From Magnetospirillum sp. SS-4 (GTDB lineage Bacteria > Pseudomonadota > Alphaproteobacteria > Rhodospirillales > Magnetospirillaceae), in NCBI RefSeq assembly GCF_902729425.1, contig NZ_CACVCH010000050.1, positions 1 through 64,000 on the forward strand: a DNA stretch of 64,000 bases, in the 5' to 3' direction. Position 1 is the stretch's first letter. Each line of letters starts with the position of its first letter. Positions 37,814 to 51,933 of this stretch are shown here, one piece after another. The position numbers and the translations under genes were made by a program. Under the pieces are notes generated by a model, which worked only from the letters and a program-made list of their open reading frames with translations, did not search any database and was not told the DNA's origin.

Positions 37814-37822
37814 GGATTTCCC

Positions 37823-38251
37823 ATGCCCAGCATCCGCGAACAGATCCTAGCCGCCCTGCTGGCGCGGCTGCAAACCATCCCCGGCGCTACGGTCAAACGG
37901 GAAACGCCGTTGCCGGAAACGGTCCCCTCCGGTGGATTGATCATCCTGCGCGACGGCGATCCCGGCGATCCCGAGGTGGTGCTGTCGCCCATCACCTATC
38001 TCTGGGAACACCAGACCGAGATCGAGGTGATCCTCCAGCGCGGCCAGGACGACGACAGCGCCGCATTGGACGCACTGCTGATGGCGGTGGGGAATGCCCT
38101 GGCCACTGACCGTTCCCTCGGTGGTCTGGCCGAATGGCTGGATTGGGACGCACCCAAGACCTCCGGCCTCGCCATCGACGGTGCTGCCGCCCTGCGCGGC
38201 GCCACCGTCCCAGTCACCATCCATTACGGCTCCAGCGACCCGCTGGGCTGA
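37823..38251 (+). CDS. Minor tail protein U-like
   Basis: A 142-aa protein, MPSIREQILAALLARLQTIP, then LSPITYLWEHQTEIEVILQR, matching the tail-terminator (gpU) position and pattern. It resumes the rightward tail operon after the inserted toxin-antitoxin pair. Confidence 0.75.
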   Translation: MPSIREQILAALLARLQTIPGATVKRETPLPETVPSGGLIILRDGDPGDPEVVLSPITYLWEHQTEIEVILQRGQDDDSAALDALLMAVGNALATDRSLGGLAEWLDWDAPKTSGLAIDGAAALRGATVPVTIHYGSSDPLG

Positions 38252-38278
38252 GCCACACCTTATATATGGGAGTCCCCC

Positions 38279-39238
38279 ATGGCAAAGACTCGGGCCTATG
38301 GCGCCGATTGCATCCTGCTGGCCGCCTCCGAGGCGAGCTACGGCGTGCTTCCGGCCGACGGCTATGTACGGCTGTCGTTCAAGGAATCCAGCCTGGGCGC
38401 CGAGCGTCCCCTCGGCTACGACCCGCTGCTGGGCCAGGGCCGTGATGCCCAGGATCCCTATTACGAGGCGATCAAAGACGAGGGGGATGTCGGCGTGCCG
38501 CTGGATGTGCGAGCTTTGGGCTTCTGGCTGAAGGGCTTGTTCGGCGCGCCCGCTACCGTCGATAACGGTGACGGAACCTTCGACCATGTCTTCACCTCGG
38601 GCGGCGCGCTGCCCAGCCTCGCCATCGAGATCGGTCATGCCCAACTGGCGGTGCCGAAGTTCTTCCGCCATGGCGGGGCCAAGCTCGACAAGCTGTCCTT
38701 CGACATGGCCCGCTCCGGCGCCGCCAATGCCAGCATCGGTGTCATCGCCCAGGGCGAGACCGAAGCGGCCACCACCATTGACGTCACCCCGGCGGCCTTC
38801 GCCCTGAAGCGGTTCAGCCAGGGCAGCGGTACCATCCGGGTCGGCGGCGGCCAACTGGCCAACGTGGTGGGCGGCAAGTTGTCCTTCTCCAACAACCTGG
38901 AGCGGGTGGAAACCATCCGCGCCGACGGCCTGATCGACGGTGTGGACGAGACCGAGGCCACCGCCGAAGGCTCGGTGGACATCCGCTTCGGCACCGATAC
39001 CACGCTGACCGCCGCTATCGCCACCGAAAGCCCGGTGGAGATGGAATACGGCTTCACCATTCCCGGCTCGGCCTTTGCTCTGACCTTCCATCTGCCCCGT
39101 GTCTTTTGCCCCAAGAAGAAGCAGGAGATCAAAGGCCCCGGCGGCATCCAGGCCAGCTACGACTGGCGGGCTGCCCGCGATCCGGTGGCGGGGTATCTGC
39201 TCCGCGTCACCCTGGTCAACGACGTGGCGGGGTATTGA
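38279..39238 (+). CDS. Tail tube protein (gpV-like)
   Basis: A 319-aa protein with SFKESSLGAERPLGYDPLLG, then GALPSLAIEIGHAQLAVPKF and SFSNNLERVETIRADGLIDG, as in phage tail tube proteins of the TTP type. It polymerises into the tail tube. The ATG follows GGGAG. Confidence 0.85.
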   Translation: MAKTRAYGADCILLAASEASYGVLPADGYVRLSFKESSLGAERPLGYDPLLGQGRDAQDPYYEAIKDEGDVGVPLDVRALGFWLKGLFGAPATVDNGDGTFDHVFTSGGALPSLAIEIGHAQLAVPKFFRHGGAKLDKLSFDMARSGAANASIGVIAQGETEAATTIDVTPAAFALKRFSQGSGTIRVGGGQLANVVGGKLSFSNNLERVETIRADGLIDGVDETEATAEGSVDIRFGTDTTLTAAIATESPVEMEYGFTIPGSAFALTFHLPRVFCPKKKQEIKGPGGIQASYDWRAARDPVAGYLLRVTLVNDVAGY

Positions 39239-39240
39239 TC

Positions 39241-39756
39241 ATGATCCGACTTTCTCTGCCGAAGGAGCCGTACTGGCTCGATCTGCCCCATGGCGTGCGG
39301 GTGTTCGTCCGTCCCCTGACCACGGCGGTGTACGAGGCCGCCCGGTCGCGCGGCTGGCGCATGGCGCGAGCCATTGCTGCCGAACATGCCGATCTGAAGG
39401 CCGCCGGGGCCGACATCACCGGCTTGCCCGATCTGTCCGACGAGGATGCCCTGGCCGGGCTGTCACAGATGTTGTTCGCCCAAGGTCTGGCCCGCTCCGC
39501 CATCACCAAATGGGAGGGCGTGTTGGATGCCGATGATCAGCCCGCCGAAAGCACCGATTCCGCCATCGCCGAACTGATGCAGCTTCCCCGCATGGCCGAG
39601 TCGTTCGTCGTCCAATACACCGAAACCCATGAAGCGGTCATCGCCGAGGGAAACGTCTCCAGGCCCGCGCCGAATGGCACTTCAGCGGCGGGCCTGACTA
39701 CTGCCGAGGCTGCTTTGGGCCCTGCGACTGCCCCTATGACCGCAACGCCCCCCTGA
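39241..39756 (+). CDS. Tail assembly chaperone G-like
   Basis: A 171-aa protein, MIRLSLPKEPYWLDLPHGVR, then SDEDALAGLSQMLFAQGLAR. It lies between tube and tape measure genes, the position of lambda gpG. The last 33 residues, after Asn138, appear to be a by-pass frame: a slippery heptamer at 39648-39654 offers an alternative, conserved C-terminal domain in the -1 frame. Confidence 0.82.
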   Translation: MIRLSLPKEPYWLDLPHGVRVFVRPLTTAVYEAARSRGWRMARAIAAEHADLKAAGADITGLPDLSDEDALAGLSQMLFAQGLARSAITKWEGVLDADDQPAESTDSAIAELMQLPRMAESFVVQYTETHEAVIAEGNVSRPAPNGTSAAGLTTAEAALGPATAPMTATPP

Positions 39757-39968
39757 CCGAATCCGGTTGGCAAGCTTGGGAATTGCTGACCGGTTCCATC
39801 GGCGCCATCCGCATCGGCCCCCGTGGCGGCATCACCGGTCTCGACCTTCCGGCCCTGCTGATCCAGGCCCAGGCGCTGGGTTACGACCGGCCTCTGCTGG
39901 CGCGGCTGCTGCCCTTCGCCGAGCGGGGAATGGTGGCCGGTTCCGCCAAGGTTCAAACAGAGACCTGA
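39241..39968 (+). CDS. Frameshift product GT-like tail assembly chaperone
   Basis: A predicted 242-aa fusion of the first 138 codons of the G-like frame and 104 codons read in the -1 frame from 39654 to the stop at 39966. The added domain reads AEWHFSGGPDYCRGCFGPCD, then GWQAWELLTGSIGAIRIGPR and GLDLPALLIQAQALGYDRPL. It has cysteine-rich and helical parts and no start of its own. The fused form should bridge tape measure and tail tube subunits. Confidence 0.75.
39648..39693 (+). promoter_or_regulatory. Programmed -1 frameshift signal (GGGAAAC + hairpin)
   Basis: The heptamer GGGAAAC (39648-39654) is in the correct phase (G GGA AAC). Eight bases later a hairpin starts: GCCCGCGCCG (39663-39672) pairs with CGGCGGGC (39686-39693), with a 2-nt bulge. 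Heptamer, phase, spacer and hairpin together fit the standard -1 frameshift site of siphophage G/GT genes. Confidence 0.8.
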
Positions 39969-39971
39969 TCC

Positions 39972-42947
39972 ATGGCCACCAAATCCGTCTCCATCCGCCT
40001 GTCGTTGCAGGACGGCGAAACCGTGCGCCGTGCCCTGCTGCAATTGGGCGAGGACGGGCAGAAGGCCCTGCTGCGGATCGAGACGGCTGCACAACCGGCG
40101 TCGAAGTCGCTGCTGGCCATGAATGCCGCCAGCCAGGACATCCAGGGCGGCATGGCGGGCTTCGCCTCGCGGCTTGGCCCCATCGGTTCGGTGATGATGG
40201 CGCTGGGACCGGCCGGGCTGGCGGCGGGCGCGGCCATCGGGTTCTTCGGCAAGGCCATGGTCGAATCCACCATCAAGGTGGAAAGCCTGGAGGCCCGCCT
40301 CAAGGGTCTGGTCGGCGCCGCAGCGCTCACCGAAACCACCAGCTATCTCTATGCCCAGGCCCAGAAGACCGGCACCGCCCTGGAGACGGTGGTCGGGGCC
40401 TATTCCCGGCTGGCGGCGCTGCAGAAGGCCGGGATCATCACTACCGGCGAAAGCCGTGCCTTGCTGGAAGGGTTTCAGTCCACCGCCATCGCCCTGGGTG
40501 CCTCGTCCGAGCAGTTGGAGCAATCCCTGTTCGGGCTGGCCCAGGGGCTGTCGTCGGGCACTCTGCGCGCCGAGGAACTCAACCAGATCGTCGAGCCCAT
40601 GCCGGGCTTGCTCCAGGCTCTCGACCGGGCCGCCGCTCTGCCCTCGGGTGGCTTCCGCCAGATGGTCACCCAGGGCAAGGTCACGGCGGATTTCTTCCGC
40701 GACACCTTGATCAAGGCGCTGCGGGGCTTCGACGAGGCCGCCAAGGAAAGCGCCGATACCGCCGAGCGGTCGTTCCAGCGCCTGTCCAATGCATGGCAGG
40801 GCTTTACCAACGCGCCATGGCTGCGCAAGGTTCTGTCGGGCGGCGCCAATGCCGGGGCGGCGACGCTGGAATCGCTGACGCCGAGCGAATCCACGGTCAA
40901 ATCGCGGCTGGCCGATCTGGATCGCCGCATCGCTGCCCTGGGGGGCGAACAGGCCCTCGACAAGCCGCTGCCTGCCGGTACCCATTCCGTGGTGGTCCAG
41001 GCGGTCAGGGAGGAAAACGAGGAACTGCGCCGCCTGCTGGCCGAGCGCTTTGGATTAGCCGCCGATCTCGACGAGATCACCCGCAAGCGGGCGGGCATGG
41101 AAGCCCAGGCCAAGATGGAACGCGACCGGGTCCGGGCCGAGCAGCGCGAGCCCAGCTATCTCGAAAAGCTGACCGACATCAAATTCGAGGTGGAATGGCA
41201 GGAGAAGCTGAATGCGGCCCGCGCCGCCGGCAATGCCGAGTTCTCCCGCACCAAGGCCCAATACGAGGCGGCCAAGGGCTTCCGCCAAATTGAGAAGGAG
41301 CTGTTCCAGCAAGGCGGCGTCTATCGCACCCAGCCCAAGGAACAGGAGATCAAGGATCTGCTGGCCCGCGAGGCCGAGGCCAAGGGGGCGGGAGAGATGT
41401 CCGCCCAGGCCCAGGCCGAGGTACTGGGGCTGAACCTCCAGGCTCGTGGCCAGGAGCGTCTGGCCGAAGCCGCCCGCACCGGGGGACAGGCCCAGATCGA
41501 CGCAGCCCGCGATGCCAAGGTGCTGGAGTTCGCCTTCAAGAATAACGGCGCGGCGGTGGCCGAGTATGATCGGGCGCTGCGCCGCATCGATGCCGCCAAG
41601 CTGCTGGAGCAGAAAAACGGCCTGATCCGCACCATGGGGCAGGAAGCCGCCGCCAATGACCGGCTGGCCGATGCCGCCAAGGGATCGGTGGCCGACACCA
41701 TCCTGGCGGAGCGCACCAACTGGCTGGCCGAACAGGCCTCCAAGGGGCTGGCCGATGCCAATGGCGAACTGGCGGCCTCCTACGCCCAGGTGCAGAAATC
41801 CCGCGCCAACAGCGAGGCCGCCCGCACCGTCGCCGATCTGGAGCGCGAGATCGATGCCCAGGTTCGGTTGGCCGAGGCGGTGCGCAGCAGTGATCGCAAC
41901 CGCGTTCGCACCGTCACCATCGACAATGACGTCGCCAAATTCGCCCGCGGCCACAAGCTGGCCGAGGACGATCCCAAACTCGATGAGTACCGGGCGGCCC
42001 GCTCGCGGCAATATGCCGAGGCGGTCAAGGACGAGGCCCGCCAGACCACTCTGGCCTATGACGCCACGCAGCGTTTCGCCGAGGAACTGGCCAAGCTCAA
42101 CGAGCAGCGGGCCAGCGGCACCTTGTCGGAAGAGGCTTACACACGCCGCTATCGGGAATTGGAGCAGGACAAGCTGGCCGCCAGCCGCGACTGGCAGGAC
42201 GGCGCCATCCGGGCGGTGCGGGCCTATGCCGACGAAGCCAGCAATGCCGCAGCCAGTGCCGAACGTGCCATGTCGGGGGCCTTGCGGGCCAGCGAGGATG
42301 CCTTCGTCAAATGGGCCATGACCGGCAAGCTGGCCGGGCAGGATCTGTTCAATAGCCTGGCCGAGGAGGCTCTGCGGGCTGCCTGGCGCATGTCGGTGGT
42401 GGCGCCCATCTTCGGGGGAGCCGGTGGCGGACTCTTCGGCAGCCTGATCAGTGGCCTCGGCGGCTGGTTCTCCGGTGGTAGTTCCGGCGGCGCGGCGCCG
42501 GTGGCCGATACCGGCGCTTTCGCCATCGCCCATACCGGCGGCCTGATCGGCCTCGACCGCCTGGAAACCCGGTCGTTCGATCCGGCGGTGTTCATCGGCG
42601 CGCCTCGCTTCCATCGGGGCGGCTTGGTTCCCGGCGAGGTGCCGATCATCGCCCAGCAGGGTGAAGAGGTGCTGACGCGGGGCGATCCCCGCCACCGCTT
42701 CAATCTGCGCTCCCGCGATGATGCCCCGGTGACGGTCAGTGTGCCGGTCTCTGTCAATATCCAGACGCCCCAGGGCACCCAGGCCCGCACGGCACAGCGC
42801 CGCGATTCCGGTGGCGGCCTGACGATCGACATCATCGTCGAGCAGATCACCGACGCCATCTCCGGCGACATCGTCCGCGGCCAGGGCATCGCCCCGGTGC
42901 TGGAGCGCCAATACGGGCTCAACCGTGCCAACGGGGCCTATCGATGA
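39972..42947 (+). CDS. Tape measure protein
   Basis: A 991-aa protein. An N-terminal tape-measure domain (GFASRLGPIGSVMMALGPAG hydrophobic segment; LEQSLFGLAQGLSSGTLRAE) is followed by a long helical, alanine- and glutamate-rich ruler. A C-terminal part (MTGKLAGQDLFNSLAEEALR) matches lambda gpH C-termini. Its length sets tail length, about 150 nm by the usual 0.15 nm per residue rule. Confidence 0.93.
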   Translation: MATKSVSIRLSLQDGETVRRALLQLGEDGQKALLRIETAAQPASKSLLAMNAASQDIQGGMAGFASRLGPIGSVMMALGPAGLAAGAAIGFFGKAMVESTIKVESLEARLKGLVGAAALTETTSYLYAQAQKTGTALETVVGAYSRLAALQKAGIITTGESRALLEGFQSTAIALGASSEQLEQSLFGLAQGLSSGTLRAEELNQIVEPMPGLLQALDRAAALPSGGFRQMVTQGKVTADFFRDTLIKALRGFDEAAKESADTAERSFQRLSNAWQGFTNAPWLRKVLSGGANAGAATLESLTPSESTVKSRLADLDRRIAALGGEQALDKPLPAGTHSVVVQAVREENEELRRLLAERFGLAADLDEITRKRAGMEAQAKMERDRVRAEQREPSYLEKLTDIKFEVEWQEKLNAARAAGNAEFSRTKAQYEAAKGFRQIEKELFQQGGVYRTQPKEQEIKDLLAREAEAKGAGEMSAQAQAEVLGLNLQARGQERLAEAARTGGQAQIDAARDAKVLEFAFKNNGAAVAEYDRALRRIDAAKLLEQKNGLIRTMGQEAAANDRLADAAKGSVADTILAERTNWLAEQASKGLADANGELAASYAQVQKSRANSEAARTVADLEREIDAQVRLAEAVRSSDRNRVRTVTIDNDVAKFARGHKLAEDDPKLDEYRAARSRQYAEAVKDEARQTTLAYDATQRFAEELAKLNEQRASGTLSEEAYTRRYRELEQDKLAASRDWQDGAIRAVRAYADEASNAAASAERAMSGALRASEDAFVKWAMTGKLAGQDLFNSLAEEALRAAWRMSVVAPIFGGAGGGLFGSLISGLGGWFSGGSSGGAAPVADTGAFAIAHTGGLIGLDRLETRSFDPAVFIGAPRFHRGGLVPGEVPIIAQQGEEVLTRGDPRHRFNLRSRDDAPVTVSVPVSVNIQTPQGTQARTAQRRDSGGGLTIDIIVEQITDAISGDIVRGQGIAPVLERQYGLNRANGAYR

Positions 42948-43423
42948 TGATCCGCTTTCCCGCCACCCTGCCCATGCCGCTGGCGGAGCCCTATGCGGTC
43001 AAGCCCGCCGACGGGGTGGTCCGCACCGACATGGAGCAGGGACCGGCCCGCCAGCGCCGCGAGTTCACTCAAGTTCCCACCAAGATCCCGGTGAAGTGGC
43101 GCTTTACCGACGCCCAATACGCGGTATTCGACGCCTGGTATCAGTGGAAGGGCAAGGCCGGGGCGGAGTGGTTCGTGATTCCGCTCAGGAGCGGCCTCGG
43201 CGTGATCGACCACGTCGCTCGCTTCACCAAACAATACGAGGCGCCGTTGTCCTCGGGCGGCTTCTGGCTGGTGACGGTGGAACTGGAGGTCCGCGACCGC
43301 CCGGTTCTGTCCGAGGCCGAGTTGGACATCCTGCTGGATTCTTCCTGGGTCGACCTGTCCGGGGCGGTCACCGGCCTCGATACCCTTGCCAATACCACCC
43401 TGCCCGACCAGATCGGAGCCTGA
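42944..43423 (+). CDS. gpM-like minor tail protein
   Basis: A 159-aa protein, MMIRFPATLPMPLAEPYAVK, then KIPVKWRFTDAQYAVFDAWY. It overlaps the tape measure stop by four bases and takes the lambda gpM position at the tail tip. The fold cannot be assigned by eye. Confidence 0.65.
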   Translation: MMIRFPATLPMPLAEPYAVKPADGVVRTDMEQGPARQRREFTQVPTKIPVKWRFTDAQYAVFDAWYQWKGKAGAEWFVIPLRSGLGVIDHVARFTKQYEAPLSSGGFWLVTVELEVRDRPVLSEAELDILLDSSWVDLSGAVTGLDTLANTTLPDQIGA

Positions 43424-43426
43424 TCC

Positions 43427-44470
43427 ATGACCATCAAGGACGATCTTCTCGCCGCCACCGCCAAGGCCGGCGGGGCGGCGCAGATTCTGCACGACGTGGC
43501 GAATGGCCCCGCCACGGGAGCGGCCAGCACCGTGGTGACCGAGGCTGGCCCGGTCAAGACGGCAGCCAAAGTGGTGGCGGACATCGAGGCCGATATCACT
43601 GCCAGGATCGGCTCCATCGATCAGGCGGTCGCCGACACCGCCGCCGATGCCGAGGCCGCCGCCTTGTCCGCCGCCAATGCCCAGGCCAGCGAAGTCGCCG
43701 CCGCCGCATCGGCCAATGCCGCCCAGGTGGCCAAGGTCACCTGGAAAGGGCCATGGTCGGCCGCCACCGCCTATGCCGTCCACGACGCAGTCTCCTTAAG
43801 CGGTTCCTCCTATGTCGCCATCGCGCCGAACACCAACCAGCCGCCGCCCGATGCGGCCCATTGGCAGGTGCTGGCCGCCAAGGGTCTTGATGGCATCGGG
43901 GCGGGCGACATGCTGGCCGCCCAGAATCTCGCCGATTTGCCCGACAAGGCGGCGGCCCGGAGCAATCTCGGCCTGGTGATCGGCGCCCAGGTCCAGGCCC
44001 ATGATGCCGAGCTGGACGCCCTGGCCGGTCTGGTCAGCGCCGCCGATAAACTGCCCTATTTCACCGGATCGGGTACTGCCGCCCTGACCGACCTGACCGC
44101 CGCCGGCCGCGCCCTGCTCGACGATGCCGACACGGCGGCCCAGCGCGCCACGCTGGGGCTGTCCGACGCAGCCACCACCACGGTGGCCGCGATCCGGGCC
44201 GGGGTGGACGTCTCCAGCCGGGTGGCCAAGACCGGCGACACCATGACCGGGGCGTTGACGGCACCGGGCTTCACCACATCGGGAAGCTCCACCGTATCCA
44301 CCGGCTTCAAGATCGCCAGCGGCACCGATCTCGCCAATATCTTCGCCCGCCAGCTGTCGCTGGGCGGAAGCCTCAGCGGCAACCTGACCAACGGTGTTCT
44401 GACGCTGTCGGGCGGGTACTGCTCCTACTGCTCGTACTGCACCTGCGCGTGCAGCGATTGTTCCTGCTGA
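43427..44470 (+). CDS. Tail-fibre-like protein with Cys-rich C-terminal tail
   Basis: A 347-aa protein. Alanine-rich coiled coil ([20 protein letters not shown]) leads to a carbohydrate-binding-like module ([20 protein letters not shown], then [17 protein letters not shown]), then fibre motifs ([31 protein letters not shown]). The last 17 residues, [17 protein letters not shown], hold seven cysteines in a 17-residue core with SYC repeats. This ending is unlike ordinary fibres and resembles a RiPP core peptide. Two radical SAM/SPASM genes follow. The protein presumably projects from the tail tip. Confidence 0.85.
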
Positions 44471-44484
44471 ACAGGGGAAACGCC

Positions 44485-45273
44485 ATGTCCATCAGCTACA
44501 CGGTCACCGGAACACTCGGGGCGGGCTTCGTGATCGAGGTCTCCGCCACCGGCTTCGGGGTGAAGGTCTATTCGGAAGATCCGCTGCGATTCCCCGAGGG
44601 GATGGCTCCCGTCGATGGCTCGGCCCTTTCCCCGGCTCTGGCGGGAAAGGCCATCCATATCGGTGACGAGACCCGGTTCGACTGGCTTGATTTCCAGGCC
44701 AAAAACGAGGTCCAGGACTATTCCTGCGTGGTGTTCCCCCTGCATTTCGAGGGCATCCAGGCACCCTATAACCGCTTCATCGACACCTATCTGTCGAAGC
44801 GGTCGGGCCAGGATGAGTTTCAGCGCACCAGGGTGCATACCGCGTTTCACCTGTACGTGCCGGAGAAGGGATGCGCCTTCACCGATTGCGCCCTGCATGC
44901 CTTCATCGGGTCGGACTATCCGCTGATTGCCAATTTGGATGCGATGGCCAAGGGTGTGGACGCGGTCAGGGCCTCGGTGATGCCGGGGCTGAAGCTGTCC
45001 GGCCCCGCCGGGATCACGCCCGAGGGCTATGCCCTTATCCAGGTGGTGGCCACCAATGCGGATGGCAGCATTCGGGACTCCGTGTCCAGCACGGTGTTCC
45101 TGGAGGAGATCAACGGCTATCTGCCCAAGCGCCGGGTCAATCTGGTCAACGGCATGGCCCAGTTCAGGGTCGGTGCCCTCGGCCTGGGCGCGGGTGACAC
45201 CGTGCGGGTCAAGGCCGGGTTCCGATTCTACACCGGCCTGGGCGACATCACCCTTCCGGTCGGGGAGGTGTGA
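44485..45273 (+). CDS. Cassette protein of unknown function
   Basis: A 262-aa protein, MSISYTVTGTLGAGFVIEVS, then KNEVQDYSCVVFPLHFEGIQ and AFHLYVPEKGCAFTDCALHA. The C-terminal third (RRVNLVNGMAQFRVGALGLG) resembles an Ig-like domain. It is 14 bp after the Cys-rich fibre gene, has a good AGGGGAA site, and overlaps the first radical SAM start by one base. It could be a second structural partner or an adaptor for maturation. I do not recognise the family. Confidence 0.7.
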   Translation: MSISYTVTGTLGAGFVIEVSATGFGVKVYSEDPLRFPEGMAPVDGSALSPALAGKAIHIGDETRFDWLDFQAKNEVQDYSCVVFPLHFEGIQAPYNRFIDTYLSKRSGQDEFQRTRVHTAFHLYVPEKGCAFTDCALHAFIGSDYPLIANLDAMAKGVDAVRASVMPGLKLSGPAGITPEGYALIQVVATNADGSIRDSVSSTVFLEEINGYLPKRRVNLVNGMAQFRVGALGLGAGDTVRVKAGFRFYTGLGDITLPVGEV

Positions 45274-46568
45274 TGTTCACGCTGATCATGCGCCGATCGG
45301 ACGGCTCCGCCTTCCGCCTCGTCCTGGACACCTCCACCAGCCGTCTCACCGACGAGGCCGGGCGGCTGATCGACATCTCGCCCCTGGGCGTGGTCTACGA
45401 CAATGAAGGGAAGACGCTGCGCGACGCCCCCGTCACCACCAGGGACCGGGCCGAGCCGAAATCCAGGTCCGTCAAGGTGCTGCGCATCCAGCTTGGGCTG
45501 GCCTGCAACTTCTCCTGCGCCTATTGCGTCCAGGATCGGGCGCGGCCAGGGCATGACGAGAAGTCCTCCGACGTCGCGGCGTTCCTCAACGGGCTGGATG
45601 AGTGGATCTCTGGTGCGCCCGTCGTGGTCGAGCTGTGGGGCGGGGAACCGCTGCTCTACTGGCACAAGCTTAAAACCCTGGTGGAGGGGCTGCGCTGCCG
45701 GTGGCCGGAGGTCAAGCTGCGGCTGACCACCAACGGCTCACTGCTGGACATGGAGAAGGTGGATTGGCTGGCCGGTCTCAGAAACATCTCGGTGACCGTC
45801 TCGCACGACGGCCCCGGACAGCATCTGCGGGGGAAAGACCCGCTGGATGATCCGGAGACGCTGGCCGCCATCCGCTCCCTGTTCGCCCGGCTCGGCACCT
45901 TTGCCAAGTTCCATGCGGTGATGTCGCTGCCCCACCACAGCCCCATCGCCCTGTTGCACTACTTTTTCGACCGGCTGGGCACGACCGATATCCAGGTCTC
46001 CAGCAGCGGGTTGAAATACCCGCCCACGAAGGATTCCCGGCTGCATCTGGTTCCCGGCAATCCTAAGGAATACACGACGATGCGCCACAATCTGGCCAGG
46101 GAGTTCCGCACCCCTTACGTCTTCGCCAATGCCATCGTGGCAGCGCCGCTCCGCCATCTGCTCTACCAGTTCGCCAAATCGGTGCCCGCCCGCGCCCGTG
46201 GTCAGGGCTGCAACATGGACAACCCCGAGCATCTGGCAGTGACGCTCAGCGGCGATGTCATCGTCTGCCACAACACCAGCCCGGCCACCCACAGGATCGG
46301 CAGCGTCCATGACTTCGCCGCCATCCGGCTGACCCACAGCATCTCGTGGCACAACCGGCCGGAATGCAACTCCTGCCCGGCGCTGCTCAGCTGCGGCGGG
46401 GCCTGCATGATGATGGAGGGCCGGGAGCGCTCCTTCTCCTGCGACAACAACTTCTCCCACGGCCTGGTCTATCTGGCGACGCTGCTCTACGCGCTGACCG
46501 GGGCAGACCTGCTGCGGATCGAGGGCCGACGCATCCGCCATCTGGGCGTCACTAGCTTCGATTTCTGA
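45273..46568 (+). CDS. Radical SAM/SPASM maturase 1
   Basis: A 431-aa enzyme. The 4Fe-4S/SAM motif is CNFSCAYC (C78, C82, C85), followed by ELWGGEPLLYW and LTTNGSLLDM. A C-terminal SPASM-type set of cysteines (near 312, 332, 365, 368, 374, 378 and 390) can bind auxiliary clusters, as in sactipeptide or ranthipeptide enzymes. A 65-residue beta-rich N-terminal domain is shared with the next enzyme. It starts in TGATG overlap with the preceding gene. It would install a radical-based modification, presumably on the Cys-rich fibre tail. Confidence 0.9.
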   Translation: MFTLIMRRSDGSAFRLVLDTSTSRLTDEAGRLIDISPLGVVYDNEGKTLRDAPVTTRDRAEPKSRSVKVLRIQLGLACNFSCAYCVQDRARPGHDEKSSDVAAFLNGLDEWISGAPVVVELWGGEPLLYWHKLKTLVEGLRCRWPEVKLRLTTNGSLLDMEKVDWLAGLRNISVTVSHDGPGQHLRGKDPLDDPETLAAIRSLFARLGTFAKFHAVMSLPHHSPIALLHYFFDRLGTTDIQVSSSGLKYPPTKDSRLHLVPGNPKEYTTMRHNLAREFRTPYVFANAIVAAPLRHLLYQFAKSVPARARGQGCNMDNPEHLAVTLSGDVIVCHNTSPATHRIGSVHDFAAIRLTHSISWHNRPECNSCPALLSCGGACMMMEGRERSFSCDNNFSHGLVYLATLLYALTGADLLRIEGRRIRHLGVTSFDF

Positions 46569-46599
46569 TCCCACGCGGGGCTCCCGCCCCGGTCCCCGG

Positions 46600-46617
46600 T
46601 TGGAGGCGAGCCTCCAA
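46600..46617. repeat. Hairpin between the two radical SAM genes
   Basis: TTGGAGGC and GCCTCCAA form a perfect 8-bp stem with a two-base centre (GA), 32 bp after the first enzyme's stop. The weak T-rich run further on could make it an attenuator that sets a different level for the second enzyme. Confidence 0.45.
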
Positions 46618-46649
46618 GCCTCCCTTGTTTCTATTACCGAGAGGCCGCC

Positions 46650-47885
46650 ATGCTTTTCCGCCTGCATCTGATGGGGCCGGACGGCGCGTCGAAGACGGCC
46701 ATCTACGACACCGCGACGTCGGGCCTCACCATTGATGGCCAGCCCTTCGCCGAGGTCGAGACGGATTGTGCCGTACCTCCGTCCGTTCTGGTCTCTCCGG
46801 CCACGCCCGGGTACAAGGCTGGTCCGTTCAAGCGCCTCAAGATCCAGATGGGCTTGGCCTGCAACATGGCCTGCTCCTATTGCCTCCAGGTGACGCACCG
46901 GGAGGAGAAGACCAGCACAATCGACGCCGAGGCGTTCCTGGCCGGGCTTGACACCTGGTGGCGGCCGGACAGGGATGAAAACCTGCGCATCGAGATCTGG
47001 GGCGGCGAGCCGTTGCTGCACTGGGGCAAGCTGCGGGCGCTGGTGACCGGGCTGCGGGCCCGCCACCCCAAGGCCAACATGCTGGTCATCACCAACGGCA
47101 CCTTGCTGACCCTGGAGATCGCCCGCTGGGCGCGGCAGATGGGGCTGCATCTGGCCATCTCCCATGATGGACCGGGGCAGAAGGTTGTGCGCGGCCGCGA
47201 TCCGCTGGAAATACCGACGGCGCTGGAAGCCATCCGCTGGCTGGTGGCCGAGCATCCCCAGCACGTCAATTTCAACTGCGTCCTGACGCCGGGGAATCAC
47301 CGCCTGGGGGGCATCCGCCGTCACCTGGAAGAGGCCCTGGGCGTGGAGGAGATTGCCCTCTCGACCGAGGGACTGGTGCAGGTCGATGGTGGCCAGACCT
47401 CTCCCTTGACGGATTTGGACCACGAGGCCATCCGCCTGTCGCTGCTGGACGAGATGATCAGCGGCGAAGCTTTGCGCAACATCACCATCGCCCAGAAGGT
47501 CCGGGATTTCCGCCTGTCGCTGGCCAGTCGGCGACCGTTGTCCTCGGTGGGCCAAAGGTGCGGCATGGACCGGCATCATCAGATCGCGGTGGATTTGAAG
47601 GGTAACGTGCTGACCTGCCAGAACACCCCGGAGCCGGAAATGCGGATCGGCCACGTCTCCGCCATGGACAATGTTCGTCTCGACACCGCCACGCATTTCA
47701 GCCACCGGCCCGGATGCATGGAATGCCCGGTGGTCCACCTGTGCCAGGGGGCCTGCATGTATGCCGAGGGTGACGATTGGGACGCCACCTGCCGCAACAG
47801 CTTTACCTTCCACGCGGCGATCCTGTCGGGCGCCATGGCCCATCTGACCGGCATGGCCATCACCGACATCGAGCCTCTCCGGTAA
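46650..47885 (+). CDS. Radical SAM/SPASM maturase 2
   Basis: A 411-aa paralogue of the preceding enzyme: CNMACSYC (C71, C75, C78), EIWGGEPLLHW, ITNGTLLTL and SHDGPGQKVVRGRDPL align block for block. C-terminal SPASM cysteines are in GQRCGMD, LTCQNT, GCMECPVVHLCQGACM and DATCRNS. Sequence divergence between the two suggests different sites or reaction types on one substrate. The upstream hairpin and 81-bp gap separate its translation from the first. Confidence 0.9.
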   Translation: MLFRLHLMGPDGASKTAIYDTATSGLTIDGQPFAEVETDCAVPPSVLVSPATPGYKAGPFKRLKIQMGLACNMACSYCLQVTHREEKTSTIDAEAFLAGLDTWWRPDRDENLRIEIWGGEPLLHWGKLRALVTGLRARHPKANMLVITNGTLLTLEIARWARQMGLHLAISHDGPGQKVVRGRDPLEIPTALEAIRWLVAEHPQHVNFNCVLTPGNHRLGGIRRHLEEALGVEEIALSTEGLVQVDGGQTSPLTDLDHEAIRLSLLDEMISGEALRNITIAQKVRDFRLSLASRRPLSSVGQRCGMDRHHQIAVDLKGNVLTCQNTPEPEMRIGHVSAMDNVRLDTATHFSHRPGCMECPVVHLCQGACMYAEGDDWDATCRNSFTFHAAILSGAMAHLTGMAITDIEPLR

Positions 47886-47887
47886 TC

Positions 47888-48514
47888 ATGCCCGATCCCG
47901 CTCTCGAAGAGGCGATCCGCGAGGCCTATGCCTCGTGCCCCTCCAACGCCATTCCGCTCCACACCATGGAACTGCGCCATCCCGCCTTCATGGATGACCA
48001 CGGCAATCCGACCGCCGTCCGGGTGGTGCGCAACTACGAGGATGAGGTCACCTGGCGCGAACGCGGCGGAGCCGAGGTGGCGGCCGTGCTGGATTCCATG
48101 ACGGAGGAGGCTCGCAGCCGGGTCGGGCTGGTGGCCCGCCTTGAATCCGATGCCCCGGTCAATGCCGGCCAGATGGTGGCCTTCATTGCGCTGGCCTTCG
48201 ATTTCCAACTGCCCGAGGTCAGTTCCGCCCCGGTGCCCGAACTCACCGTCACCATGGACAATGTCGGCCGCGAACTGATGGAGCCGCTGGAGGCCGCCGC
48301 CACCTCCCTGGTCCGCATCGAGGTCACCTACCGTCCCTATCTCGACATCGATCTCGACGGTCCCCAGATGGACCCGCCCCTGACCATGACCCTGGTCCAC
48401 GTCAACTGCACCGCCACCCAGATCACCGCCCGCGCCCAGATGTCCCAGATCGGCAACAAGGCCTTCCCCTGGCGCACCTATACCCAGCGCTGCTTTCCGG
48501 GGCTGGGCGGTTAG
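47888..48514 (+). CDS. DUF1833 tail protein (gpL-like position)
   Basis: A 208-aa protein, MPDPALEEAIREAYASCPSN, then AAVLDSMTEEARSRVGLVAR and GNKAFPWRTYTQRCFPGLGG, matching the DUF1833 tail-tip family. It takes the lambda gpL position and shows that the cassette before it is an insertion in the standard tail order. Its stop overlaps the toxin gene end on the other strand. Confidence 0.85.
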   Translation: MPDPALEEAIREAYASCPSNAIPLHTMELRHPAFMDDHGNPTAVRVVRNYEDEVTWRERGGAEVAAVLDSMTEEARSRVGLVARLESDAPVNAGQMVAFIALAFDFQLPEVSSAPVPELTVTMDNVGRELMEPLEAAATSLVRIEVTYRPYLDIDLDGPQMDPPLTMTLVHVNCTATQITARAQMSQIGNKAFPWRTYTQRCFPGLGG

Positions 48515-48849
48515 CCGGTCGCCAGACAGTCGGACAGGGCCGCCCCTACCGCAGCCCGGTCCTTGTCGGCCAAGGTTCCCGTCCTTCTCAGAATCAGATC
48601 CCGATCCAGGGTGAACAGCTTGAACCGCACTAGGCAGGGCGCGGTCAGGCCGGCCTTGTCCCAATCATGGATGTGAACATCGCTCGGCCAGTCGCTTTGC
48701 TTGGCGGTGGTGATCATGGCAAGCACGACCTGATCATGCCGGTCGTTGAAGGCTGAGGTCGAAACCACCAGGGCGGGACGCCGCTTGGCTCCAACCTTGT
48801 CGGTGAAGGGAAACGGCACCACCACCACGTCGAACGGCTCAAAGCCCAC
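48511..48849 (-). CDS. MazF/PemK-family toxin
   Basis: A 112-aa mRNA interferase-like toxin. FEPFDVVVVPFPFTDKVGAK then RRPALVVSTSAFNDRHDQVV and LTAPCLVRFKLFTLDRDLIL are family blocks. A GTG start at 48849 is chosen because it gives the expected N-terminus and an 11-bp overlap with the antitoxin. The longer frame adds a proline/arginine lead with no homology by eye. Confidence 0.88.
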   Translation of the reverse strand: MGFEPFDVVVVPFPFTDKVGAKRRPALVVSTSAFNDRHDQVVLAMITTAKQSDWPSDVHIHDWDKAGLTAPCLVRFKLFTLDRDLILRRTGTLADKDRAAVGAALSDCLATG

Positions 48850-49063
48850 GCCAGGCCTCCTCGTCCTCGGGGCTGTTCCACTCGCCGAGCGTGCCCTGGA
48901 TGGCGCGGAGGTACTCATCGCCGCCCGGCGCGACCTTGCGGATCAGAACCTGATCATCATCGACCACGAAGGTGACCGTGTCCCCGGCTGCCAGATGAGC
49001 GGCTTCGCGCACCCGCTTGGGGATCGTCATTTGCCCCTTCGACGTAATCCTCGCCAGTTCCAT
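48839..49063 (-). CDS. AbrB/SpoVT-type antitoxin (MazE-like)
   Basis: A 74-aa protein, MELARITSKGQMTIPKRVRE, then AGDTVTFVVDDDQVLIRKVA, the AbrB swapped-hairpin DNA-binding fold. It lies upstream of the MazF-like toxin and overlaps it, on the minus strand between two tail genes. A DNA-binding antitoxin here would also control the pair's transcription. Confidence 0.88.
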   Translation of the reverse strand: MELARITSKGQMTIPKRVREAAHLAAGDTVTFVVDDDQVLIRKVAPGGDEYLRAIQGTLGEWNSPEDEEAWRGL

Positions 49064-49115
49064 CGGGAATGACCTTTCCAAATTCCTTACCAGTAAGAAT
49101 ATCGGAGTTCTCACC

Positions 49116-49550
49116 GTGGTAAGCAAGCCATTCCAGGCGATTTCCGCCCACTGGGCCACGCCCTATATCGGCCAGCCGTGGTCGAAGCACGGCCAGGGGC
49201 CGGATGCCTGGAACTGCTGGAGCTTCTTCCGCCACGTCCAGAAGATCCATTTCGGGGTCGAGACCCCAATGGTGCCCTATGCCGACGACCTGCTGGTGCT
49301 GGCGCGGCTGTTCCGCGATCACGGCGAGCGATCTCACTGGCAGCCGGTGACCGCCTATCGGGAGGGCGACGGGGTGATGATGCGCACCGCCCGCTATCCC
49401 ATCCATGTCGGGGTATGGCTGGAGGTGGATGGCGGCAGGGTCCTGCACTGTGCCGCCGGATCGGGGGTGGTGTGCCAGTCCCGGCGCGATCTGGCGGCCA
49501 ATGGCTGGCGGATCGACGGAATCTACCGTCACCGGGGGACCGCATCATGA
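49116..49550 (+). CDS. NlpC/P60-like tail assembly protein (gpK-like)
   Basis: A 144-aa protein. WATPYIGQPW then DAWNCWSFFRHVQKIHFG carries the candidate catalytic cysteine, and HVGVWLEVDGGRVLHCAAGS the histidine, the papain-like NlpC/P60 layout. The GTG at 49116 follows GGAG by eight bases and is the first good start beyond the inserted toxin-antitoxin pair. It probably cuts peptidoglycan during tail assembly or DNA entry. Confidence 0.8.
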   Translation: MVSKPFQAISAHWATPYIGQPWSKHGQGPDAWNCWSFFRHVQKIHFGVETPMVPYADDLLVLARLFRDHGERSHWQPVTAYREGDGVMMRTARYPIHVGVWLEVDGGRVLHCAAGSGVVCQSRRDLAANGWRIDGIYRHRGTAS

Positions 49551-51907
49551 GGGCGCGCGTCACCCTGGTGGCGGATGCCTTCAATCCGCTGCGCTCCATG
49601 CAGGTGGTGGAGGTGGAGCGGCCCGTTACCGTCCGCGCCTTCCTGGATGGCCGCAGCATCGACGAATTCCCGGTCCCCACCATCTGCCTGAGGAATGGCC
49701 GCCCGCTGCTGAGGCGCCATTGGGCCGGGACCGTCATCGACCATGACGACATCGTCGCCTTCGTCGCTCAGCCGCTGGGCGGTGGTGGGGGCGGCGGTGG
49801 CAAAAACCCGCTGACCACCGTGCTGATGGTGGCGGTGATGGTCGTGGCCATGGTGCTGGGCCAGTACTATGTCGGGCCGATGCTGGCCTCCTCCCTGGGC
49901 GTCACCAGCGCCGCCGGCATCGCCACGGTGGGCGCCATCTCGACGGCGGCCATCGCCTCGGTGGGCATGATGGCGGTGGGCGCCCTGGTCTCGGCCCCCA
50001 GTCCCGCCACGCCGTCCCTCAACTGGGGCGGCGGTGGCGGGGTGGCGCCGTCCCCCACCTACAGCCTGACCGCCTCGGGTAATCAGGCCCGCCTGGGCCA
50101 GCCGATCCCCGAGATCTTCGGGCGTCACAAGGTGGTGTTCGATCTCGCCGCCACGCCCTATCAGGAATACGTGGCCGGGGAGCAATACCTGTTCCAGCTC
50201 CACTGCATCGGAGTGGGGCAATACCGGCTCGATGCGCTGATGATCGACGACACCCCGCTGGCCTCGTTCGAGGAGGTCCAATATCAGGTCATTCCCCCCG
50301 GTGCCGCCGTCACCCTGATGGATGCCTGGGTGGTCACCGCGGTGGAAGTCGCGGGCCAGGAACTGAAAGGCCCCAACCAGTTGACCAATGGCGAGACCGG
50401 CTGGGTCGGCCCCTTCGTCGCCAATCCCGCCGCCACCACCGCCCATCACATCGGCATCGACGTGGTGTTCACCAACGGCCTCTACTACGCCAACAATTCC
50501 GGCACCCTCGACCCTAAGACGGTGACCTGGGAGGTATGGGGGCGGCGGATCGACGATCTCGGCGGGGCGCTGGGGGACTTCACCTTACTGGCGACCGAAA
50601 CCTACACCGCCGCCACCAACACCCAGATCAGGCTGTCCTATAAATACCCGCTGGTCTCGGCCCGCTGGGAGGTCAGGCTTCGCCGCACCAATGACCGCGA
50701 CCAGGATGGCCGCACCGCCCATGAGATTCGTTGGGGCGAGATGCGGTCCTATCTCGACGGTTCCCCCGATTACGGCGACGTTACCCTGCTGGCCATCAAG
50801 ATGCGGGCGACCGACAATCTGTCGCAGCGATCAAGCCGCCTGATCAACGGCATCGTCACCCGCAAGCTGCCGCTCTGGTCGCCGGAGACCGGCTGGTCCG
50901 AGCCGGTTCCCACCCAGGCCATCGCCCCGGTGGCGGCCTATGTCATGCGGGCGACCAACGGCGCCCAACTGGCCGATACCCGCCAGGATCTGGACATGCT
51001 GTGGCGACTGCACCTTGTCTGGGAAGCCCGTGGCGACCGCTTCAGCGGGGTGTTCGACACCACCACCACCGCCTGGGAGGCCTTGGTCAAGGTGCTGCGG
51101 ACAGGGCGGGCGGCCCCCTATCAGCAGGGCGGCATCGTCCGCTATATCCGCGACGAACCCCGCACCTTGCCGGCAGCCCTGTTCAACGGCCGCAACATCG
51201 TCAAGGGCAGTTTCGCCATCGAATACGTCATGCCCGGCGAGGACACCGCCGATTCGGTGACGGTGGAGTTCTTCGATGAAATCACCTGGAAGATCGCCGA
51301 AATCACCGCCGCCCAGCGGGGTGGCGCCATCCGGGTGCTGACCCCATCCGAGATGGTCAACGCCCCGCCGGAAAAGCCGGGCCGTGTCCAAATGTTCGGG
51401 ATCACCAACCGCGACCACGCCGGACGCGAGGCCTGCTTCCTGGTGGCCTGCAACATCTATCGCCGCCGTCTGCCCACCTGGAAGACCGAGTTGGACGGCA
51501 TGATCCTGTCCTATGGCGAATTGGTGGCCGTCTCTCACCCCATGCCGGCCTGGGGCCTGGGCGGCGAGGTGGTGGACTGGGACGAGGTCGCCGGACTCCT
51601 CACCCTGTCGGAGCCGGTGCGCTGGAGCGAGGGAGCCGCCCACTTCATGGCGCTGCGCCGTCGCGACGGGCGGCTCGATGATCCGGTGGAGATCGAACCT
51701 TCCCCCGGCGGCGATCCCTTCCAGGTCCGGGCCCTCGATCCGCTGCCCTTCGCCCCCGACACCGGCGGCGATCGCGAGCGCACCTATTACGCCCTCGGCC
51801 CCGGCACCACCTGGGCCCAGCGCGTCCTGGTCCGCTCGCTGCGGCCCCGCTCGCGTCAGGTCGAGATCTCGGGAATCTGTGAAGACGACCGCGTCCACGT
51901 CAATTGA
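49547..51907 (+). CDS. Host specificity protein J-like (tail tip)
   Basis: A 786-aa protein. A gpI-like N-terminal part with hydrophobic spans (LMVAVMVVAMVLGQYYVGPM) and a glycine-rich linker is fused to a TipJ/gpJ-type body (GRHKVVFDLAATPYQEYVAG; GIVRYIRDEPRTLPAALFNG; EYVMPGEDTADSVTVEFFDE). It forms the tail-tip hub that contacts the host. It overlaps the preceding gene by four bases. Confidence 0.88.
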   Translation: MRARVTLVADAFNPLRSMQVVEVERPVTVRAFLDGRSIDEFPVPTICLRNGRPLLRRHWAGTVIDHDDIVAFVAQPLGGGGGGGGKNPLTTVLMVAVMVVAMVLGQYYVGPMLASSLGVTSAAGIATVGAISTAAIASVGMMAVGALVSAPSPATPSLNWGGGGGVAPSPTYSLTASGNQARLGQPIPEIFGRHKVVFDLAATPYQEYVAGEQYLFQLHCIGVGQYRLDALMIDDTPLASFEEVQYQVIPPGAAVTLMDAWVVTAVEVAGQELKGPNQLTNGETGWVGPFVANPAATTAHHIGIDVVFTNGLYYANNSGTLDPKTVTWEVWGRRIDDLGGALGDFTLLATETYTAATNTQIRLSYKYPLVSARWEVRLRRTNDRDQDGRTAHEIRWGEMRSYLDGSPDYGDVTLLAIKMRATDNLSQRSSRLINGIVTRKLPLWSPETGWSEPVPTQAIAPVAAYVMRATNGAQLADTRQDLDMLWRLHLVWEARGDRFSGVFDTTTTAWEALVKVLRTGRAAPYQQGGIVRYIRDEPRTLPAALFNGRNIVKGSFAIEYVMPGEDTADSVTVEFFDEITWKIAEITAAQRGGAIRVLTPSEMVNAPPEKPGRVQMFGITNRDHAGREACFLVACNIYRRRLPTWKTELDGMILSYGELVAVSHPMPAWGLGGEVVDWDEVAGLLTLSEPVRWSEGAAHFMALRRRDGRLDDPVEIEPSPGGDPFQVRALDPLPFAPDTGGDRERTYYALGPGTTWAQRVLVRSLRPRSRQVEISGICEDDRVHVN

Positions 51908-51933
51908 GCCACGCTACTGATAAGGATTCCGCC

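Follow-up and report, generated by a model that had tools for sequence, protein, structure and literature searches.

A radical SAM/SPASM cassette beside a cysteine-rich fibre tip in a Magnetospirillum prophage: a candidate maturation system for a virion protein

Virion proteins usually mature by folding, cleavage, isopeptide bonds or metal bonds. A prophage of Magnetospirillum sp. SS-4 may use a further route. The window, by which we mean the whole stretch of 64,000 nucleotides analysed (contig NZ_CACVCH010000050.1), carries a tail fibre gene whose product ends in a cysteine-rich tip, followed in the same direction by one uncharacterised protein (here the helper) and two paralogous genes for radical S-adenosylmethionine (SAM) enzymes with SPASM domains, an arrangement first noticed in a reading of the DNA letters (the sequence-only reading) and confirmed here. 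The radical enzyme or enzymes, a frequent helper and a fibre with alternating cysteines seem to form one swappable unit in many bacterial viruses. The cassette probably is a phage-encoded maturation system resembling those of ribosomally synthesised and post-translationally modified peptides (RiPPs), acting on the cysteine run of the fibre tip, with thioether crosslinks as the most likely product.

Several described systems share parts of this picture. Compared with the ranthipeptide maturases CteB (SCIFF) and PapB, the window enzymes score far under the PapB cut-off of 340 bits, their proposed substrate is a large structural protein whose core lies C-terminally, there is no clear RiPP recognition element (RRE), and the cysteines form an alternating CxC run. 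The natural spacing of PapB is CX3D according to an excerpt of PMC9413430; a strictly alternating run cannot contain it, and this register was rejected as impossible. In NxxcA, of the NxxC ranthipeptides, a cysteine donor is joined to an asparagine acceptor three residues upstream (Cys23-Asn20; excerpt of PMC8326336), and NCNC holds N-x-x-C repeatedly. However, NxxcA has a short bacterial peptide with one bridge, the window tip has no Asn, and the link is a spacing argument only. QhpD is a radical SAM enzyme that makes Cys-Asp/Glu thioethers in an enzyme rather than in a RiPP (same excerpt), but it belongs to bacterial metabolism, not to a virus.

On the virion side, the HxH fibres and spikes (T4 gp37, P2 gpV, R-pyocin) also place X-x-X motifs in trimeric phage structures, although they use histidine and metal, and the excerpt of PMC6116203 mentions no dedicated enzyme. 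Achromobacter phages JWF, a temperate, UV-induced siphovirus (excerpt of PMC3899368), and 2-1 have the same enzyme family, phrog_1802. In the JWF record a Hint protein, one hypothetical protein and a radical SAM protein are consecutive entries; both records name genes singly, and in the fields seen they name neither the cysteine run between fibre and Hint nor the unit. According to an excerpt of PMC10783043, one phage cluster includes a radical SAM protein; no tie to fibres is mentioned. Searches of an open-access library, judged by titles and the beginnings of abstracts, turned up no paper that connects radical SAM enzymes with phage fibres, an absence that is weak evidence.

Association of the cysteine run with the enzyme family

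Eight enzymes were aligned, and genome and viral collections were scanned for the family; all counts refer to the matches listed and are lower bounds. From 112 strong loci, 111 with an enzyme open reading frame (ORF) gave 61 clusters at 80% identity, L002 being dropped for having no enzyme ORF at E 1e-40. An upstream protein with CxCxC at its C-terminus, or with a CxC run before a Hint domain, was found in 47 of the 61 clusters. Eight of the 14 negatives had about 2 kb or less of upstream DNA (L024, L102, L103, L106, L111, L140, L148 and L149); at L024 the script match was a 53-amino-acid minus-strand ORF and was not counted. With these eight excluded, 47 of 53 evaluable clusters were positive, a figure with a small bias, as positives with short upstream DNA were retained. 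In 39 of the positives a CxCxC run starts within 22 residues of the ORF end, and eight have a CxC run with Hint only. Judged by one example locus per cluster, the ORF with the run that lies closest to the enzyme ORF stops no more than 2.9 kb upstream of it or overlaps it slightly. The search for fibre and radical SAM neighbourhoods in phages, proposed by the sequence-only reading, thus revealed a recurrent module. Plasmids gave no enzyme match at 1e-15.

The converse search began from DNA encoding NCNC(N/D)CNC in viral contigs and was blind to enzymes, some contigs being common to it and the viral enzyme scan. At least 120 such stretches were found and 119 loci were analysed. Among the matches listed, the run was the ORF end in 87 of the 119. 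Enzymes were sought from 3.5 kb upstream to 3.6 kb downstream of the run. Where 2.5 kb or more of DNA was present downstream, a radical SAM match (E<=1e-8) lay near 61 of 63 C-terminal runs, for 57 of them downstream at E<1e-20. The proportion was 56/57 when 3.5 kb of downstream DNA was required and 70/76 at 1.5 kb, and after grouping at 70% identity an enzyme was found in 30 of 31 clusters. The remaining 32 matches included 14 without an in-frame start codon, and an enzyme was present for 6 of the 23 with enough DNA, among them runs before another C-terminal domain (L197, L218, L254). A chance cysteine-rich ORF was rejected by co-occurrence in both directions. The pairing of enzyme and tip is real and general.

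Some neighbouring arrangements were also noted. At L197, L204, L218 and L254 the CxC run is followed by a C-terminal stretch of 100-177 amino acids, by eye not Hint, with a family enzyme near. Small ORFs at L198, L248 and L264 end in NCNCNCNC(T/S)RGIL, and one at L282 ends in NCNCNCNCNCTRGSL. Weaker radical SAM matches lie near them, three to four at L198 and L248 and one at L282; the small ORFs of these three loci are perhaps a related peptide system. At L035:4354-8320 a chromosomal enzyme adjoins a YcaO protein (1.5e-40) and a 118-amino-acid ORF with GDCGC, likely a RiPP cluster employing the same enzyme family.

The fibre is a caudovirus tail fibre by homology (PHROGs) and by its position among tail genes. 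It has seven cysteines, every one within the final 16 residues. Its terminal 19 residues are identical in Paramagnetospirillum caucaseum SO-1 (L021) despite synonymous changes. The ratio of nonsynonymous to synonymous substitution (dN/dS) against this relative is 0.16 for the fibre, 0.27 for the helper, and 0.21 and 0.125 for the enzymes; the cassette is under purifying selection. No HxH motif is present in the window tip. In 46 run-bearing proteins (alignment A6), the PHROGs families that match most members are largely tail fibres, whilst Hom_end_hint matches nine (E<=0.01) and collagen two. The residues between cysteines (n=287) are mainly N (157), A (53) and D (46), and N precedes 62 of 72 distinct runs, counted per run and not per cluster. 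Because the Cys codons (TGC 268, TGT 91) and Asn codons (AAC 107, AAT 50) of the runs are mixed, it is the protein sequence that is kept, not a DNA repeat. The YCS repeats of the window lie within a short period-9 array (44417-44444); a repeat artefact as the origin of the tip was rejected, given this codon mixing elsewhere and the identity of the end across synonymous changes.

A Hint domain succeeds the run in Achromobacter phage 2-1 (L001), JWF, L030, L045, L112 and L128, and likewise in L161, L162, L170, L171, L172 and L355. The Hint Cys comes right after the run in the majority of them, and in L170, L172 and L355 a few residues separate the two. The Hint Cys1 start and the block-B His aligned in 10 of 10 proteins, and in a Hint Pfam scan one of eight exceeded the Pfam cut-off.

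Enzymes 1 and 2 are 34% identical. Both pass the SPASM model TIGR04085 (cut-off 27 bits; scores in Table 1) and Radical_SAM PF04055 (1e-9 and 2.6e-8). Neither reaches an equivalog cut-off, with 55.7 and 80.4 of 340 bits for PapB, 45.6 and 55.6 of 453 bits for QhpD (TIGR03906, 3.6e-15 for enzyme 2), and 51.7 and 34.5 of 425 bits for SCIFF. The usual SPASM spacing is CX9-15GX4C...CX2CX5CX3C...C. The CX3CX2C motif and seven SPASM cysteines are invariant in an alignment of eight sequences (A1) that includes both window enzymes; among the matches listed, the motif is present in 110 of 111 relatives and the SPASM spacing in 108. Elsewhere, two-enzyme cassettes with a short first enzyme ORF (338-362 amino acids) were seen in L005, L006, L022, L023 and L108. 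In L005 and L006 the short enzyme begins just before the radical SAM motif; the window paralogues are both full-length. In a Halomonas genome (L045:7010-8173) the enzyme downstream of a CxC and Hint protein is split into two short ORFs, a broken copy.

Nothing in Pfam or NCBIfam matched the helper above cut-off, nor did any PHROGs family up to E 0.1. Its AlphaFold2 model has a predicted local distance difference test score of 95.8. Residues 163-262 have immunoglobulin (Ig)-like matches, and in a whole-protein search the PDB matches were confined to this half. The helper of L017 had zero matches in 50,697 phage records, in which a divergent Achromobacter helper is present and was found by profile. 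No helper was detected in 79 of 205 loci, a count that includes cut loci and loci outside the enzyme family.

Replacement as a block in the tail slot

Two further prophage copies in the same genome, on contigs C29 and C60, each hold a tape measure gene, a fibre with a terminal cysteine run, a helper and one enzyme. By blastn, the window is 89% identical to the C29 copy over 39349-44335, that is, to fibre residue 303. Within 44336-47886 there are only short patches of 72-74%, in order; from 47887 the two copies match again (93%), with 91% identity over 49147-51910. The proteins behave in the same way, with identities of 95% for the tape measure, 88% for fibre residues 1-282, 97% for DUF1833 and 95% for J, as against 33% for the helper and 53% for the enzyme (compared with enzyme 1). 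Because the block diverges amid DNA that is about 90% identical, we conclude that tip, helper and enzyme(s) were replaced together.

We then surveyed the corresponding tail slot in 55 genomes of the same family. Of 40 DUF1833 places, 24 have both border genes. The other 16, which are cut or miss a border gene, were not counted; one of them, L351, retains an enzyme fragment but no tail. In the complete slots, run and enzyme occur together in 7 of 24, neither occurs in 17, and one alone in none. The positive slots are the window, C29, C60, SO-1 (L390, the contig of L021), L354, L360 and L355; L355 has its run in the ORF that follows the fibre, ahead of a Hint domain, and its enzyme end looks altered. 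The 17 negative slots have no run, helper or enzyme, and in all 17 a fibre-type N-terminus opens the slot. One of the slots with border genes and no run, helper or enzyme is in the window's own genome (L371, G000 C29:102500-112500). The cassette is patchy, being found in 6 of 55 genomes of the family, 2 of 385 of the class and 1 of 398 of the phylum (threshold 1e-60, own genome counted).

The sequence-only reading had taken the cassette for an added unit. This does not hold, as the slot is not normally empty and other genes fill 17 of the 24 complete slots; insertion into an empty slot was rejected, related prophages carrying other fibre genes there. Since those other genes have a fibre-type N-terminus, we regard the cassette as a fibre-tip allele that can be exchanged for others, not as a simple insertion. 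In L357, L358 and L362 the slot holds, beside the fibre N-terminus, a large protein ending ...MDGTVF(A/S)WGPS....

Proposed mechanism and alternatives

We propose that the radical SAM/SPASM enzyme or enzymes would act on the alternating cysteine run at the distal C-terminal end of the fibre, or before Hint. Cysteine sulfurs would be joined to carbons of the residues in between or of a neighbouring chain, and the crosslinks would give the fibre a rigid and stable tip that faces the receptor. Where there is an Ig-like helper, it probably serves to hold or cap the tip, or to present it to the enzyme. In the Hint forms, self-cleavage at Hint Cys1 would release the finished tip, leaving a fibre that would end in the cysteine run. 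Tip, helper and enzymes would travel between phages as a single fibre-tip module. Co-occurrence both ways, the slot comparison and block replacement lend strong support to the earlier suggestion that the enzymes modify the fibre tail, and the tip is very probably the substrate. Thioether crosslinking is the favoured chemistry, with rather less assurance, and stabilisation of the tip as the benefit is a guess to which we give somewhat under even weight.

Epimerisation, cysteine oxidation of the formylglycine type or carbon-carbon bond formation at the tip, in place of thioether crosslinks, is unlikely: CteB is the top match, the dense cysteines alternating with N, D or A supply many donors and acceptors, and CxPxR, the anSME-type motif, is absent from the runs inspected. 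The HxH motifs of R-pyocin, T4 and P2 bind one iron via six histidines of the trimer (excerpt of PMC6116203), and CxC repeats would align sulfurs likewise. The run might accordingly be a metal site, a sulfur counterpart with three CxC strands and six thiolates, with the enzyme in a subsidiary part, for instance to protect or activate the site. A dedicated SPASM enzyme would be unneeded there, yet the tie of run to enzyme is nearly complete, and we consider a metal site improbable. It is more improbable still that the enzymes target the helper or another protein, with the cysteine tail linked only via the shared fibre locus. The helper does sit between fibre and enzyme at many loci, but run and enzyme occur without a detected helper (for example L030, L033, L045, L105, L112 and L134), and other occupants of the slot lack run, helper and enzyme together.

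A number of observations weigh against enzymatic maturation of the fibre tip. Enzymes without any cysteine-rich tail protein, which the sequence-only reading had named as contrary evidence, amount to at most 6 of the 53 evaluable clusters, those without a terminal run. L035 and L036 are chromosomal loci with a YcaO protein or an ABC transporter as neighbour; L040 is a deletion remnant, in which the region of the phrog_290 tail gene (window 37817-39048) is fused to the helper end (window 45118 on); in L177 and L142 an adjacent ORF carries its CxC run at another place; and L137 lacks the run with no explanation. Among controls consisting of weaker radical SAM relatives, such an ORF was present in 6 of 67 loci. 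L043, L044 and L047 look like real tails beside distant enzymes, and L046 probably is a cut family member. The excess of such ORFs in the family clusters over the controls (Fisher p ~6e-20) is a loose guide only, the groups being non-random. From the side of the run, the 9.9 kb examined at L274 (2.7 kb of it downstream) contain no enzyme, and in L299 the enzyme is 5.3 kb away. The window tip starts YCSYCSYC, without Asn, and is atypical; the run of L022 starts likewise and continues N-rich, and both are two-enzyme loci, whereas the sister prophages on C29 and C60 have one enzyme. Neither a leader peptide nor a clear RRE was found. Residues 1-58 were modelled as three strands without a helix, the CteB alignment begins at residue 1, and in place of the short precursor with leader and core of a ranthipeptide or sactipeptide system the cysteine-rich neighbour is the 347-residue fibre.

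If fibre-tip maturation is correct, phage-encoded radical chemistry on a receptor-facing tip, passed on together with that tip, would connect virus assembly with RiPP enzymology, phrog_1802 (PHROGs category 'other') would gain a meaning, and there would be natural substrates maybe holding several consecutive crosslinks. More tentatively, this may be a seemingly undescribed form of virus-encoded protein finishing, in which phages of several hosts make a crosslinked cysteine ladder, possibly joining three chains, some cut or ligate the tip via Hint, and tip and chemistry are swapped as a host-recognition module.

Locus layout and neighbouring genes

The window lies on contig C52 of genome G000 (4.53 Mb), and its prophage is of siphovirus type, with terminase, portal, head protease, major head protein, tape measure and J-type proteins as markers. 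All cassette reading frames are open (Table 1). The flanking genes had been called gpM-like and gpL-like, which stands by position only; by homology they belong instead to phrog_384 and to phrog_396/DUF1833.

Table 1. Features of the cassette and its flanks (window coordinates)
Feature	Position	Strand	Evidence
Tail tape measure protein (upstream flank)	39972..42947	+	phrog_3336 1.6e-139
Minor virion protein, left neighbour of fibre	42944..43423	+	phrog_384 (virion structural protein) 1.8e-46
Tail fibre, 347 aa, proposed substrate	43427..44470	+	tail-fibre PHROGs, best 2.1e-12
Cys-rich C-terminal tip of fibre (residues 332-347)	44420..44467	+	reading frame; identical in SO-1
Block differing as a unit from the C29 prophage (fibre tip, helper, enzymes)	44336..47886	+	blastn
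Helper, 262 aa: N-terminal domain and C-terminal Ig-like domain	44485..45273	+	AlphaFold2; Ig-like matches 163-262
Radical SAM/SPASM enzyme 1	45270..46568	+	phrog_1802 1.1e-62; TIGR04085 31.6 bits
Radical SAM/SPASM enzyme 2	46650..47885	+	phrog_1802 1.5e-70; TIGR04085 35.7 bits
DUF1833 minor tail protein, right neighbour (start = first ATG)	47888..48514	+	PF08875 4.7e-33, phrog_396 3.7e-43
Central tail fibre J homologue	49547..51907	+	phrog_31 2.8e-101

A MazF-like toxin gene (PF02452 6.7e-15) and a MazE-like antitoxin gene (PF04014 8.6e-13) lie at 48511-49159 on the minus strand, antisense within the tail operon between the DUF1833 gene and an NlpC/P60 gene. ORFs with the same ends as this pair are present in L352, the genome copy of L040.
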